From positions 62,001 to 126,000 of the forward strand of contig JAJUHK010000001.1 in NCBI GenBank assembly GCA_029279945.1: a stretch of DNA of 64,000 bases, given 5' to 3'. The DNA comes from Pseudidiomarina indica. GTDB taxonomy: Bacteria; Pseudomonadota; Gammaproteobacteria; Enterobacterales; Alteromonadaceae. Under the pieces are notes generated by a model. It worked only from the letters and a program-made list of their open reading frames with translations, was not told the origin of the DNA and made no database searches. Shown in pieces: positions 6,034-11,003 of this stretch (the first letter of the stretch is position 1; each line of letters begins with the position of its first letter). The translations under genes and the position numbers were made by a program.

Positions 6034-7584
6034 ATGTACTGGACTGCAACATCCATTAACGTCACCGCCAATAGCGCATTTGTTGACGTCATCACTGGCG
6101 ATGACCTGTCGCTAATACGTCCGCTTAGCCTGCTGTTCGTATCCGGTTATTTACCCGTAGTGGTCAAGCGCGCTACCGCCACGCAAATTGAGCTGATGGA
6201 GCCTTGGCCAAACGTCACCGACAATGGCCGCCGCGCTATCATCGCTAAAACTGCCGCTGAGTTTGATGCCGCCGTGGATGCACTCAATGCAGCGACTGAT
6301 GCAACTAGCGCAGCCGGCGAGAGCATTGAAACTTTCTTGCAGGGCGTGAGCCAGTTCTCAATTGAAGCATTGGGCAGTGCTAACGCCTCCGCATGGCGCA
6401 CTAAACTCGGCCTTGGCAATGCAGCGACAAAAGCAGTCGGTGAGGCTGACGCAAGCCTAGTCGATAACGCCCGTTTAAAAGCCGTTTTAGGCACCGATTC
6501 AACACTAATTAAAAAGGTATCGAGCCTAAGCAACTTGAACTTCATTCCTGACACGCTGCGCAAACAGGTAGAGCTCGCCACCCAAGGCAAAAACACGGTG
6601 CTGTACAACGCCAACGGTGACCCAAGCATCATGTTCCCAGTGTACAAGTTCCGCTACGAAGACCTTGGCTTTGCCGGCAACCCATTTGGAACAGGCGTCG
6701 CTACTGCGTTCTTGAAGGGTGGTGTTGAGAAATCCGAAATCTTTATCGGCTGCTTCCAAGGGCGCGTGCACAACGGGCAAGTCGTGTCTTTGCCAGGACT
6801 CGACCCAACCACCAGTATTAACTTCGACAACTCAAAGGCTCGGTGCGCCGCCAATGGACCGGGCTGGCATCTAATGACCGAACACGAGTGGGCAGCTATT
6901 ACGCTTTGGTGCATGGCGAACGGCTTTCAGCCACGCGGTAACACTAACTATGGCCGTGCCCATGACGCAACGCATGAAGTAGGCCGCCGGCAAGATGGTG
7001 GCATTGCGGGCGATACCTCTGGCTCTGCACGCATCTTAAGCGGCTCTGGCCCCGATGCATGGCGCCACGATAACTCGCCATTTGGCATAGCGGATCTTGT
7101 TGGTAATGTGCATGAATGGACTGACTTGCTCAAAACGGTGCGCGGCCAAGTCATTTGCGCGCCAGATAACGACTTCGATCTTGGTGAGGCCAATTGGGTC
7201 GCGCAGCAAGCATTTTTCGACTCACCAAGCACTGGCACAAGCGGTAACCTAGGCGCACCAACATTGGCTGATGCAGTGACGAACTACGCAGATGCTGATC
7301 CTGACTCTAGCGCGGGTAACGCATATAACTCGATAAATCCATGGTCAAGCATGGCCACATCTGGCAGCTATGTCAGTAATGAGTTGATGCGCCGCTTGAT
7401 GATTGAGCCAGCCGGAATCAACCCCCAAGGCTATATCTACGTGCGTAACTATGGCGAGCGTTTCCCGTATCGTGGCGGCTATTGGTACGTTGGCAGCGGT
7501 GCTGGCCTCGCCGCGCGCTATCTGGGCAACGTGCGCTCGTCCGCGAGCAGCCTCGTCGGGTTTCGCCCCGCTTTTGTCGCTTGA
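6034..7584 (+). CDS. DGR target: tail-tip adhesin with C-type-lectin/FGE-like fold
   Basis: This 516-residue protein is the DGR-diversified product. Residues 1-160 are a fibre-like attachment region (Ala-rich helical part, then WRTKLGLGNAATK as in phage tail fibres). From about 200 the sequence matches the formylglycine-enzyme/C-type-lectin class used by DGR targets: WHLMTEHEW (from W278), LVGNVHEWTD (355-364) and the closing GFRPA. Residues 476-513 are encoded by the VR, in which eleven codons differ from the template. The start ATG has AGAGG eight bases upstream and lies three bases after the tail-tip gene stop. By analogy to Mtd of BPP-1 it should be the receptor-binding tip; its ligand cannot be read from sequence. 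Confidence 0.9.
   Translation: MYWTATSINVTANSAFVDVITGDDLSLIRPLSLLFVSGYLPVVVKRATATQIELMEPWPNVTDNGRRAIIAKTAAEFDAAVDALNAATDATSAAGESIETFLQGVSQFSIEALGSANASAWRTKLGLGNAATKAVGEADASLVDNARLKAVLGTDSTLIKKVSSLSNLNFIPDTLRKQVELATQGKNTVLYNANGDPSIMFPVYKFRYEDLGFAGNPFGTGVATAFLKGGVEKSEIFIGCFQGRVHNGQVVSLPGLDPTTSINFDNSKARCAANGPGWHLMTEHEWAAITLWCMANGFQPRGNTNYGRAHDATHEVGRRQDGGIAGDTSGSARILSGSGPDAWRHDNSPFGIADLVGNVHEWTDLLKTVRGQVICAPDNDFDLGEANWVAQQAFFDSPSTGTSGNLGAPTLADAVTNYADADPDSSAGNAYNSINPWSSMATSGSYVSNELMRRLMIEPAGINPQGYIYVRNYGERFPYRGGYWYVGSGAGLAARYLGNVRSSASSLVGFRPAFVA
7457..7572 (+). repeat. DGR variable repeat (VR)
   Basis: These 116 bases align gap-free with the template repeat at 8049-8164 (offset 592). Sixteen positions differ: 7480, 7486, 7489, 7490, 7498, 7499, 7519, 7525, 7526, 7540, 7541, 7543, 7547, 7552, 7553 and 7555. 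Every one is an adenine in the TR (eight A to G, six A to T, two A to C), and all 90 non-adenine positions are identical. The last 17 bases (7556-7572, TCGGGTTTCGCCCCGCT) have no adenine and are unchanged, as expected for the initiation-of-mutagenic-homing region. The first non-adenine mismatch beyond the repeat is at 7573. Confidence 0.97.
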
Positions 7585-7607
7585 TGTCTTGGTCTTGAAT
7601 CCTGTGG

Positions 7608-7625
7608 GCTGCGCGAGAGCGCAGC
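7608..7625 (+). promoter_or_regulatory. DGR target-site hairpin downstream of VR
   Basis: A perfect 7-bp stem GCTGCGC (7608-7614) / GCGCAGC (7619-7625) closes a GAGA tetraloop, 24 bases after the target stop codon. There is no T-run, so it is not an intrinsic terminator. In BPP-1 a hairpin/cruciform with a 4-base loop just downstream of the VR helps mark the target for retrohoming. No such hairpin follows the TR, which supports a target-specific role. Function here is inferred from that analogy. Confidence 0.7.
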
Positions 7626-7635
7626 TTAACGAACA

Positions 7636-8037
7636 ATGAGGTATAACGTGCAGCAACAACCGATATCGCAACAGCGAGTAGATAAGAACCACAGCGATTT
7701 AGTCATCATTCAAAAGGTCGAAGACATGATCGCGTATGGGTACCAGGCGTTGTCGCATTTTCCTAAAGCGGAGCGTCACGTCACCAGCGCAGAAATGCGC
7801 CAGTCCATGTGGCGGCTGTTGCGGTTGATGGTCATTGTAGCGAAGCGGTACCACAAGAAAACGACATTGCAGGATGTGGATGCAGAGGTTGAGTTGTTGC
7901 GCCGGCAAATACGCTTGGCGCATCAACTTGGCTTTTTGCCACCCAAGAAGTACGAGGTGTGGAGCAGACACCTTAATGAGATTGGCCGCTTCGTTGGAAG
8001 CTGGCTGAAGAAAATAAACGGTTTTAATAAGGGCTAA
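7636..8037 (+). CDS. avd: DGR accessory variability determinant (Avd)
   Basis: This 133-residue, basic, helix-rich protein lies between target gene and TR, the standard place of avd. It shows the four-helix-bundle pattern of the Avd family: a KVEDMIAYGYQALSHFPKAERH segment (about residues 27-48), a central RLLRLMVIVAKRYHKK helix and a C-terminal WSRHLNEIGRFVGSWLKK helix. Avd proteins form a basic pentameric barrel that binds the reverse transcriptase and template RNA and is required for mutagenic cDNA synthesis. The first ATG (7636) has no strong ribosome-binding site, so an internal start cannot be excluded. It starts 51 bases after the target gene and ends 11 bases before the TR. Confidence 0.9.
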   Translation: MRYNVQQQPISQQRVDKNHSDLVIIQKVEDMIAYGYQALSHFPKAERHVTSAEMRQSMWRLLRLMVIVAKRYHKKTTLQDVDAEVELLRRQIRLAHQLGFLPPKKYEVWSRHLNEIGRFVGSWLKKINGFNKG

Positions 8038-8048
8038 GTGCTACCTAT

Positions 8049-8164
8049 AGCGTTTCCCGTATCGTGGCGGCAATTGGAACAATGGCAGCAATGCTGGCCT
8101 CGCCGCGCGCAATCTGAACAACGTGCGCTCGAACACGAACAGCAACATCGGGTTTCGCCCCGCT
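8049..8164 (+). ncRNA. DGR template repeat (TR), part of the template RNA
   Basis: This is the invariant donor copy of the VR, located between avd and the RT gene. It contains 26 adenines, 24 of them between 8072 and 8147; 16 of the 26 are substituted in the present VR. Read in the VR frame, the changeable codons are almost all AAY (Asn), plus ACG and ATC, which cannot become stop codons by adenine change. In that frame a TAG lies immediately upstream (8048-8050), so the TR is not part of a protein gene from upstream. The functional template RNA in studied DGRs extends beyond the repeat on both sides, probably covering the end of avd to the RT start here. Confidence 0.95.
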
Positions 8165-8327
8165 CTTGAGGAAAGTCAGAAGCGGTATGGCCAAGGCTAT
8201 ATCGACAGCACACCTTCAAAAGGGCGCTTGGTCCTCACCGATAAGGTGAAATATAAACAGTTGCGGGTAGGCTGGTAGGCGAGCTCTGACTGCTTTCCCG
8301 CAGCGTACTTTAACAGTAGGAATCGAA

Positions 8328-9371
8328 GTGAAGACGTACAAAAACTTATATCAAGAAATCTATCAGTTCGACCGGCTCCATCAGGCTTATTTACGCGCGC
8401 GCATCGGCAAGCGTCAGCGCCGCGAAGTGCTACGCTTTGAGCGTGACTTAGAGGGTAATCTAATACAGCTACAGAACGAACTCATATGGGATATGTATCA
8501 AACTGGACCTTATCGCATCTTCCATGTGCACGAGCCCAAAAAACGCATGGTGGCCGCGCTACCGTTCCGTGACCGTGTACTGCAACACTCGCTCGTCAGC
8601 GTCATTGAGCCTATCTTTGAAAAGCGCTTCATTCACCACAGCTACGCATGCCGCCCTGGGCGCGGCATGCACATGGGCGCTAACCAAGCGCAGCAGTGGT
8701 TACGTGAAGTAAAACGTGAGCATGGCAAGGTCTACTGCCTAAAGGCTGATGTAGCCAAGTATTTCGCAAGCATCGACCAAGAGATACTTGTTACGCTGCT
8801 AGAGAAGAAAATCAAATGCCGGCGCACCATGAACCTGTGCAAAGAAATCATGAGCACCTGGCACGAGGGCTTGCCCATCGGCAATCTCACCAGTCAGCTT
8901 TGGGCGAACGTCTATCTGCATGAGCTCGATATCTTCGTTAAGGAAACGCTGCAAGTGCGACGCTATATCCGCTATATGGATGACTTCGTTATCGTGCATC
9001 ACGACAAGAAGTTTCTACAAGGCCTACGCGTTGTTATCGAAAACTTCTTGGCGCAGAAACTCAAGCTGCGACTGAACAACAAAACACAGATATTCCCCGT
9101 AGGCACCAAGCATGGCCGCGCACTGGACTTCCTCGGGTACCGCATGTGGACCACACACCGACGCCTACGCCGAGAGTCAGTGAAGCGCATGGCCAAGCGC
9201 ATGGAGCAGATGCGCAAGCAGTACGCACGTGGGGAAATCAGCCACCCTGATATTCAGCGACGCATTGCCAGCTGGCTAGGTCACGCAAAGCACGCTGAGT
9301 CGTACACCATTCGCAGGCTTGTACTCGGCAAGGCCGTATTCAAGCGCGAACAACCTGAATTAACACCGTGA
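8328..9371 (+). CDS. DGR-type reverse transcriptase
   Basis: This 347-residue group-II-intron-like reverse transcriptase has catalytic aspartates in KADVAKYF (D141) and YMDD (216-219: D218, D219). Motif 4 reads IGNLTSQ (184-190), the DGR hallmark in place of the usual QG motif. Earlier blocks include KKRMVAALPFRDRVLQ and SYACRPGRGMH. The basic C-terminal thumb region runs from about 265 to the end. No maturase or endonuclease domain follows, as expected for DGR RTs. Translation starts at GTG with AGGA (8318-8321) six bases upstream. Together with Avd it would copy TR RNA into adenine-mutagenised cDNA. A retron or group II intron RT is excluded by motif 4, the Avd and the matching VR/TR pair. 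Confidence 0.96.
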   Translation: MKTYKNLYQEIYQFDRLHQAYLRARIGKRQRREVLRFERDLEGNLIQLQNELIWDMYQTGPYRIFHVHEPKKRMVAALPFRDRVLQHSLVSVIEPIFEKRFIHHSYACRPGRGMHMGANQAQQWLREVKREHGKVYCLKADVAKYFASIDQEILVTLLEKKIKCRRTMNLCKEIMSTWHEGLPIGNLTSQLWANVYLHELDIFVKETLQVRRYIRYMDDFVIVHHDKKFLQGLRVVIENFLAQKLKLRLNNKTQIFPVGTKHGRALDFLGYRMWTTHRRLRRESVKRMAKRMEQMRKQYARGEISHPDIQRRIASWLGHAKHAESYTIRRLVLGKAVFKREQPELTP

Positions 9372-9381
9372 GGGCATAACC

Positions 9382-9726
9382 ATGTTTACCTACATCTACC
9401 AAGGCAACACCTATACCAACACCGATATCGCCTACATGCGCAACCTAGGCATGGATGACGACGCCATTGAGGCCGTACACAGCCAGAAGCAATACGAATT
9501 AGAGCGCGCCAAAGCAGGCGTGCGCGCTGAGTGCGAGAAGCGCATAACTAAACACTGGAACGTCATTGGGCAAATTAACGTTGCCCTTGGAATTTACACT
9601 GAAGCTGAGGCACAGGCATGCGTTAATTGCATCAATGCCCACCGAAGTGCATGTAACGCACTTCTTGAGCGCAGCGACCTGCTAGATGTGAATTATACCG
9701 ATGATGCGCATTGGCCGGTTCTATAG
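9382..9726 (+). CDS. Phage tail-region protein of unknown function
   Basis: I do not recognise a named family. The 114-residue product starts 10 bases after the RT stop, with GAGGG seven bases upstream of the ATG, so it is probably co-transcribed with the DGR. Residues 1-25 read as a short beta segment with YTNTDIAYMRNLGM; the middle is a charged helix. The end pattern (ECEKRITKHW, CVNCINAHRSACNALLERSDLLDVNYTDDAHWPVL) resembles C-termini of small phage proteins encoded next to tail fibres. It is the last phage-type gene before the host sequence. A role in fibre assembly is possible but unsupported. Confidence 0.7.
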   Translation: MFTYIYQGNTYTNTDIAYMRNLGMDDDAIEAVHSQKQYELERAKAGVRAECEKRITKHWNVIGQINVALGIYTEAEAQACVNCINAHRSACNALLERSDLLDVNYTDDAHWPVL

Positions 9727-9740
9727 CTAACATTGCTCGT

Positions 9741-9804
9741 GCTACACGCGTGCTATTTCTTTGCTTTTTATTTCTTTTAATTATTGCTTTATAACGCGTG
9801 TAGC
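9741..9804. repeat. 11-bp inverted repeat at the prophage/host junction
   Basis: GCTACACGCGT (9741-9751) and its exact complement ACGCGTGTAGC (9794-9804) flank 42 AT-rich bases with several T-runs. The pair lies between the last phage-type gene and the first host gene. It could be a long-loop terminator, a phage end or part of an attachment site; the sequence alone does not decide. The rest of the gap to 9989 shows no gene. Confidence 0.5.
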
Positions 9805-9989
9805 TACTTTTGCTGTTAATCATGCCAGTAGAAGGTTGGCTGTGTCATAGCAATACTAAGTCTCTGTATTGTTGGTGTAATAGCGTCAATTTACCTGAAT
9901 TTAGCGGTAAAACAAAGGGAATGTCCTATCAGCCTGAAAGGCACTTTGCTATGATTCGATGGATGGTGACAACTAATTACGAGGGCAGC

Positions 9990-11003
9990 ATGAAACGACA
10001 CATATTAACCACAGCGCTTGCTGGTACATTAGTACTCGCGCCAGCCGTATCGCTCGCTGAAGAAACGTTTGCAATAGCAATTCACGGTGGTGCAGGAACT
10101 ATTACGCGTGAGTCGATGACTCCTGAACGCGAAGCGCAATATAAAGCCAAGCTCAAAGAGGCCGTAGATGCGGGTTACGCAATTTTAGAGCAAGGCGGAG
10201 CGAGTATGGACGCGGTTATTGCCGCAGTGAAGATACTGGAGGACTCCCCATTGTTTAATGCTGGGCGTGGTGCAGTGTACACATGGGAGGGTCAGCACGA
10301 ATTAGATGCTTCGATCATGAATGGTGCTACGCTCGAGGCAGGTGCGGTAGCGAGTGTCACGACCGTAAAAAGTCCCATTGCACTGGCGCGCGAAGTCATG
10401 GAAAACTCGCCTCATGTGATGCTCAGTGGCGCCGGTGCTGAAATGTTTGCAAAGCAGCAAGGCCTTGACCTAGTCGACAATAGTTATTTCAATACTAAAT
10501 CACGCTATGAAGCATTACAGCGGATGAAAGAGCAGGTTGGCAATCCACAGGATAAAACGGCATGGCAACAGCTACCAGAGGAGTACAAGCACGGCACTGT
10601 TGGTGCTGTAGCTGTGGATAAACACGGTAATTTGGCGGCGGCAACTTCAACCGGTGGAATGACTGGCAAACGGTGGGGACGAGTAGGTGATTCGCCTATT
10701 ATCGGTGCTGGCACTTGGGCAGACAACAGCAGCTGTGCTATTTCTGCCACTGGGCACGGCGAGTATTTTATTCGCTTCCACGTTGCTGCAGATATTTGCG
10801 CACGAGTGAAGTACCTTCATCAGGATATAGTTACCGCTGGTGATACCGTGATTCATGATGTATTAGCGCCAGTTGGTGGTACTGGCGGTGTGATTATTGT
10901 TGATCCCCAAGGCCAAGTTCACATGCCGTTTAATACCGAAGGAATGTATCGCGCCAAACGTCAAGCAGGGCAAACTGCGGAAGTTGCGATTTACAAAAAT
11001 TGA
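9990..11003 (+). CDS. Periplasmic isoaspartyl peptidase / L-asparaginase (Ntn hydrolase)
   Basis: This 337-residue N-terminal-nucleophile hydrolase releases aspartate from isoaspartyl dipeptides or deaminates asparagine. The family cleaves itself before a Thr, here HGTVGAV with Thr203, to give alpha and beta chains. Also seen are IHGGAG near the start and STGGMTGKRWGRVGDSPIIGAGTWA in the beta chain. A signal peptide (KRHILTTALAGTLVLAPAVSLAEE) indicates export, unlike the cytoplasmic E. coli IaaA. I chose the ATG at 9990 because it begins the signal peptide; longer in-frame starts would bury it. It is the first host gene after the prophage and may have lost its original upstream region to the insertion. 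Confidence 0.88.
   Translation: MKRHILTTALAGTLVLAPAVSLAEETFAIAIHGGAGTITRESMTPEREAQYKAKLKEAVDAGYAILEQGGASMDAVIAAVKILEDSPLFNAGRGAVYTWEGQHELDASIMNGATLEAGAVASVTTVKSPIALAREVMENSPHVMLSGAGAEMFAKQQGLDLVDNSYFNTKSRYEALQRMKEQVGNPQDKTAWQQLPEEYKHGTVGAVAVDKHGNLAAATSTGGMTGKRWGRVGDSPIIGAGTWADNSSCAISATGHGEYFIRFHVAADICARVKYLHQDIVTAGDTVIHDVLAPVGGTGGVIIVDPQGQVHMPFNTEGMYRAKRQAGQTAEVAIYKN

Follow-up and report, generated by a model that had tools for sequence, protein, structure and literature searches.

Among described diversity-generating retroelements (DGRs), the closest comparisons for the element reported here are those of Vibrio phage VP58.5, Pseudoalteromonas phage ACA1, and Bordetella phage BPP-1, the last with a cassette ordered mtd-avd-TR-brt. 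We describe a new DGR of the Avd-type (accessory variability determinant) family in a 64,000-nt stretch of Pseudidiomarina indica (assembly GCA_029279945.1, contig JAJUHK010000001.1, positions 62,001 to 126,000), hereafter the window. A complete, BPP-1-like cassette terminates the tail module of a prophage in this Idiomarina-group genome, and its gene content and natural variation indicate that, as an Avd-type DGR of a temperate, siphophage-like prophage, it very probably works now or did so until recently. It shares with BPP-1 the gene order, the Avd family, a pattern of adenine-linked differences between variable repeat (VR) and template repeat (TR), a GC core, a GRNA hairpin 3’ of VR, and a temperate phage tail adhesin with an FGE-type C-type-lectin fold; the two reverse transcriptases (RTs) are 38% identical. 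The RTs of VP58.5, ACA1 and Aeromonas phage phiARM81mr are 47-49% identical to that of the window, and these DGRs likewise place the target before avd, TR, and rt, with YTG (Y, C or T) steps and a GRNA hairpin after VR. ACA1, however, belongs to the P2-like phages, and translation of its RT continues into TR as an extension of the protein (PMC10612066), whereas the window TR falls after the avd stop codon and before the start of rt. Similarly, the C-terminal domain of the window target is 42% identical over 340 residues to TaqVP of a Thermus aquaticus prophage (5vf4; PMC6328139), but the window protein carries ~170 additional N-terminal residues. Sister elements occur in Idiomarina loihiensis SN11 (L025) and in the IMG/VR contigs L031, L032, and L034. 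They share the cassette, an RT 94-97% identical, and an identical 25-nt array sequence (see below); they differ in VR, mostly at TR adenines, and the SN11 prophages are not in sbcB.

A preliminary description, made from the sequence alone, had proposed that the tail module of a prophage ends in a complete DGR whose parts follow the BPP-1 order. That proposal is borne out: six-frame translation finds all claimed parts open and in the order target/VR, avd, TR, rt, followed by a 114-aa open reading frame (ORF); the families and the prophage genes are identified; and positions 6034-9371 span exactly the target start codon to the rt stop. All features lie on the forward strand. The target gene (6034..7584; 516 aa) comprises an N-terminal part (residues 1-172) and a C-terminal C-type-lectin/FGE-like domain (~173-516), and VR (7457..7572; 116 bp) ends in a GC-rich core, TCGGGTTTCGCCCCGCT, that by analogy would be the core of the initiation of mutagenic homing (IMH) element. 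It is followed by avd (7636..8037; 133 aa), TR (8049..8164; 116 bp), a spacer (8165..8327) that corresponds by position, and perhaps in role, to the sp region of BPP-1 (PMC12875486), and rt (8328..9371; 347 aa), which opens with GTG and encodes YMDD and GNLTSQ motifs.

Searches assign the three proteins to known families; for RT and Avd, this was a check suggested in the preliminary description. Avd scores 120.5 bits against NCBIfam DivGenRetAVD (cut-off 80) and 113.1 bits against Pfam bAvd (cut-off 40). The RT matches PHROG 1423 (E 9.3e-136), its best solved relative is the reverse transcriptase 8ub7_A, whose structure entry also contains Avd chains (E 1.4e-67), and across 18 aligned DGR RTs including this one 26 columns are identical. 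For the target, the best solved relative is 5vf4, the T. aquaticus DGR variable protein (E 1.8e-64); structure comparison and a model place VR at the 3’ end of a gene with a C-type-lectin fold. A second DGR was sought in the same genome, where only one RT match was found at E <= 0.001, together with a weak second Avd-family match on contig C2 (E 9e-4).

VR and TR form part of a long repeat pair (7457-7576 and 8049-8168) with 86% identity at a single ungapped offset of 592 nt. Position-by-position comparison of 7457-7572 with 8049-8164 finds that all 16 mismatches fall at TR adenines (eight A>G, six A>T, two A>C). Adenines make up 26 of the 116 TR positions, which puts the chance of 16/16 at ~0.22^16, roughly 4e-11. 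Read in the VR frame, TR contains ten AAY codons, nine of which are altered in VR. In the 8 nt beyond the 116-bp VR, where homology fades, four further mismatches are divided equally between adenines and other bases, and the last three target residues (7573-7581) lie outside the adenine-only homology. By itself, a repeat pair of 120 nt is compatible with duplicates that diverged in the ordinary way, or with a recombination cassette that involves no mutagenic reverse transcription. We consider this scarcely credible here: the mismatched adenines all belong to one of the copies, both avd and rt adjoin them, and the same pattern appears in the five elements compared below and in 105 of 118 related loci, the latter share being partly by design as the repeat-pair search admits adenine-type pairs only.

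The five distinct elements compared are those of the window, L025, L031, L032, and L034 (L033, a second record of L025, was excluded from counts). Mismatches between each VR and its own TR number 16, 8, 10, 14, and 17, respectively; pooled, 64 of 65 fall at TR adenines and 21 different TR positions are affected. Between elements, VRs differ at up to 24 positions and TRs at up to 5. Pooled divergence is 16.4% for VR, 15.2% for the target before VR, 10.2% for rt, and 6.4% for avd, compared with 1.9% for TR, 1.3% for the hairpin, and 0.7% for the array. Relative to the window TR there are nine TR differences (four in L031, four in L032, one in L034), and each recurs in the VR that accompanies it; L031 and L032 have three in common (CGT>TTC), so the nine are not independent events. 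Repeated TR-to-VR copying leaves such traces: a nearly frozen TR, a diverged VR, and TR differences mirrored in VR. One phage lineage thereby offers a clean natural experiment. The preliminary description would have abandoned its reading had VR been identical in all strains and reads, free of adenine-linked changes, or had the RT motifs been inactive; VR instead differs between relatives, almost always at TR adenines, and the YMDD and GNLTSQ motifs are present, which indicates that the element has been active in nature. On the same natural variation, it may be active in culture as well.

Several observations weigh against a functional cassette as described. One of the 65 mismatches lies off adenine (TR G to VR A in L032). 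Activity is read from variation among relatives rather than from reads or repeat isolates of this strain, and current activity is to that extent presumed. Model confidence for target residues 1-172 is mostly low, and with residues 56-172 lacking a confident model, attachment to the tail is deduced from position only. As single-stranded DNA, 7560-7640 folds no better than shuffled sequence (z -0.10). Finally, avd, TR, and most of rt were lost from a sister prophage in SN11, which shows that a prophage can do without the cassette. This last observation, which documents cassette loss in nature, also favors a DGR that diversified its VR long ago and whose machinery no longer works in the window prophage. 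We judge that scenario improbable, given that all genes are open, the RT motifs are present, TR is nearly invariant while VR varies, and three relatives repeat their TR differences in VR.

For a functional DGR, the mechanism would follow that of BPP-1. The avd-TR-rt region would be transcribed, and Avd-bound RT would copy TR RNA into cDNA, inserting bases at random wherever the template has an adenine. This altered cDNA would then displace VR from the 3’ end of the adhesin gene, with the GC-rich core, a (C/T)TG array, and the GRNA hairpin as guiding signals. As array and hairpin stand on the VR side only, TR would remain unchanged while VR is rewritten repeatedly. The variable residues lie on the C-type-lectin domain, encoded beside a lambda-J-like tail tip gene, and the receptor-binding face therefore likely shifts; by analogy with BPP-1 (PMC3240598) and from the target fold, effects of VR change on receptor binding and host range are likely.

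The hairpin (7608..7625), GCTGCGC-GAGA-GCGCAGC, has a 7-bp GC-rich stem and may form a cruciform. It fits the published consensus of a 7-10-bp GC stem with a GRNA loop, and begins 35 bp past the adenine-only homology, compared with 4 to 34 bp in the examples of that paper (PMC3240598). Relatives retain it with altered stems, such as GGGGTGCGC-GGTA-GCGCACCCC and AGGGCCCAC-GGTA-GTGGGCCCT, and the rule applied here finds it in 39 of 55 representative loci. A GRNA-type loop matters in BPP-1 (PMC3240598). With the unexceptional folding score given above, the hairpin call depends on the exact stem, the loop, and conservation. The window thus displays the IMH features of a GC core and a GRNA hairpin 3’ of VR (PMC3240598), and by analogy these may function as an IMH.

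How VR is recognized as recipient while TR is spared is only partly explained in the literature examined, through the IMH element and the hairpin (PMC3240598). Between VR core and hairpin, the window carries an array of (C/T)TG units (7574..7604) starting at 7574, 7581, 7589, 7595, and 7602, in steps of 7, 8, 6, and 7 nt. Steps of ~7 nt were first seen in the group of the window and next in named phages. A further 80 DGR loci, some on contigs already sampled, were then added; of 118 loci in all, 13 without a repeat pair were dropped and 105 had one, from which 55 representatives with <70% RT identity to each other were drawn. After VR, these contain 92 YTG pairs 7 nt apart (9.7 in 1000 shuffles; standard deviation [sd] 3.0, maximum 20) and 39 pairs 8 nt apart (9.6 in shuffles; maximum 21), and after TR the counts are zero and one. 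At least three units at 7/8-nt steps follow VR in 35 of 55 representatives and TR in none; shuffles predict 1.4 of 55 (maximum 5 in 1000), and other gene ends at the same loci give 2 of 796. The window passes this rule with three units at 7/8-nt steps, five being present at 6-8-nt steps. Divided by time, the array occurs in 11 of 17 loci known before the test and in 24 of 38 fetched after the hypothesis was formed, with none after TR. Among close relatives it diverges by 0.7%, compared with 6-15% for surrounding genes. We suggest that the array may be a target-side recognition mark overlapping the IMH element.

Alternatively, the array could serve translation rather than homing, either by placing out-of-frame stops behind a stretch where frame errors are likely or by signalling the translation of avd. 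The target stop codon is a TGA that overlaps the second unit, an A follows YTG in 101 of 205 units, and stops in all three frames occur in 14 of 55 spacers, compared with 6.3 (sd 2.3) in shuffles. Yet in half of the units no A follows and no stop results, and 41 of 55 spacers miss some frame. Three-frame stops within the first 40 nt after VR of the 55 spacers receive weak support as the purpose of the array, and we regard a translational role as unlikely. Pairing of the array with spacer RNA was also considered; over the 160 nt that follow TR, CA(A/G) pairs show no matching 7/8 period (18 at lag 7, 14.2 in shuffles; 8 at lag 8, 15.3 in shuffles; 27 at lag 11, 15.1 in shuffles).

The relation of the array to Avd was followed in an enlarged set of 87 further loci (80 plus 7 named phages), 77 with a repeat pair; overall, 23 of 205 loci were dropped. 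Avd was called with our own profile at E 1e-3 within the available flanks. At least three units occur in 79 of 105 Avd-positive loci of the first set and 2 of 2 of the second (counts that include redundancy), and in none of 75 loci negative by the Avd profile. An exclusive link is nevertheless weakened by the confounding of Avd presence with RT group, by second-group VRs that in some cases lie inside genes, and by ANMV-1 (L183), which scored Avd-negative despite a published Avd-like ORF (PMC4372165).

Other results count against a general role for the array. Twenty of 55 representatives, BPP-1 included, lack three units at 7/8-nt steps. Genome searches gave 57 Avd-family loci, 17 with an adenine-type repeat pair, some perhaps by chance, and only three of the 17 (the window, L165, and L168) pass the YTG rule; a looser pyrimidine rule is satisfied by 9 of 17 after VR and 1 of 17 after TR. 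Conservation alone is not unique to the region, since in the five close elements 123 of 3284 segments of 53 nt match the array and hairpin in this respect, including segments within TR and rt. Separately, four Avd-family loci of Pseudomonadota (L167, L169, L267, and L276) carry a CTT/CTTT variant of the 7-nt steps after VR.

BPP-1 offers a point of contact with published function. Its IMH includes the GC14 core as well as a 21-bp element that differs from TR at five positions and determines direction (PMC3240598). By our alignment, the five IMH/IMH* differences are A/C, C/T, T/A, G/C, and A/C, the last three of which convert VR CTGA to TR CACC; one YTG unit would therefore be among the features that IMH has and IMH* lacks. 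As we assign it, this rereads the published functional difference through a YTG unit and involves no new experiment. BPP-1 has only two YTG units, and the 4-bp spacer next to its hairpin can be changed without loss, both of which limit the claim for the array.

We tentatively propose that Avd-type DGR targets carry a widespread and perhaps undescribed cis-element, comprised of ~3-5 (C/T)TG units in 7-8-nt steps from VR core to hairpin and not found beside TR, as a general form of the BPP-1 21-bp IMH direction element. It would distinguish VR from TR, perhaps by giving an Avd pentamer-RT complex a track to land on along one DNA strand; five Avd chains are present in the single 4dwl entry and 45 over nine entries of the 8ub7 sequence. 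The DGR literature examined contains no heptad, tandem-repeat, or direct-repeat description of the array; central surveys lie outside that coverage and may hold one. A periodic, conserved, VR-only motif across divergent phage DGRs makes a testable hypothesis on how VR and TR are distinguished, and it is the part of this system that specialists may not know. The array could also help to annotate true homing targets, including those without their own RT, as in SN11.

The second SN11 prophage (L029/L055, ~7740-8060) keeps VR, array, and hairpin, and its deletion of avd, TR, and most of rt corresponds approximately to window 7682-9139. The same genome also carries a complete DGR prophage, and against the TR of the latter this VR shows 20 differences, 15 at adenines; it might be rewritten in trans, or it might be frozen. 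The preliminary description knew of no account of this element in the lineage, and that statement stands in part: full-text search found no paper joining Idiomarina with DGRs, or Idiomarina, prophage, and reverse transcriptase, but the sister elements are already in IMG/VR, and DGR catalogues may thus list them unnamed.

The prophage extends over ~40.3 kb from attL (G000:C1:31534-31554) to attR (9817..9837), attachment sites that are exact 21-bp repeats. It encodes an integrase, RecE-, RecT-, CII-, and helicase-loader-like proteins, endolysin, terminase, portal, head protease, major head protein, tape measure, distal tail protein, and, immediately before the target, an 1853-aa tip protein matching lambda J families; the DGR is the last recognized module before attR. 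These genes and the att repeats mark it as a lambda-like prophage, probably of a temperate, siphophage-like kind. Downstream of rt, the 114-aa ORF (9382..9726) has a weak PHROG 5714 match, and its DNA is retained in L025, L031, L032, L034, and the SN11 prophage without most of the DGR.

The integration site lies within the opening codons of host sbcB (exonuclease I, ExoI; window 9817-9837, G000:C1:30132-31598), with attR within the 5’ end of the gene. In place of the native MTQP start stand 15 residues supplied by the phage, MQPYSDNNRQQKNQE, behind an upstream region that is likewise phage DNA. In E. coli, ExoI reportedly inhibits BPP-1 DGR activity (PMC12875486). A general preference of DGR prophages for sbcB was considered and set aside, as no link was seen and the location is probably coincidental. 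The SbcB family is present in 5 of 11 genomes with a DGR RT or Avd match over cut-off, and among those five sbcB adjoins the DGR only in the window genome: G014 and G379 carry both on one contig but at a great distance, G425 (Vibrio injensis) has them deep inside separate contigs, and the G290 assembly is too fragmented to place sbcB relative to the DGR. In SN11, the nearest named genome (RT 97% identical; placed in the genus of the window), the prophage loci contain no copy of this att core at <=4 mismatches, and sbcB has its own start.

Two further repeat structures were observed. The 1.5-Mb genome G381 has twelve Avd-family matches below cut-off, seven of which share one E-value; its loci L153 and L172 contain a 183-nt repeat pair with 14/15 and 14/14 mismatches at the adenines of one copy, possibly a multi-copy DGR-like expansion. 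Finally, L025 carries near-identical repeats at 9510-10024 (offset 174 nt; 341 nt with 3 mismatches), just past the end of its similarity to the window prophage.

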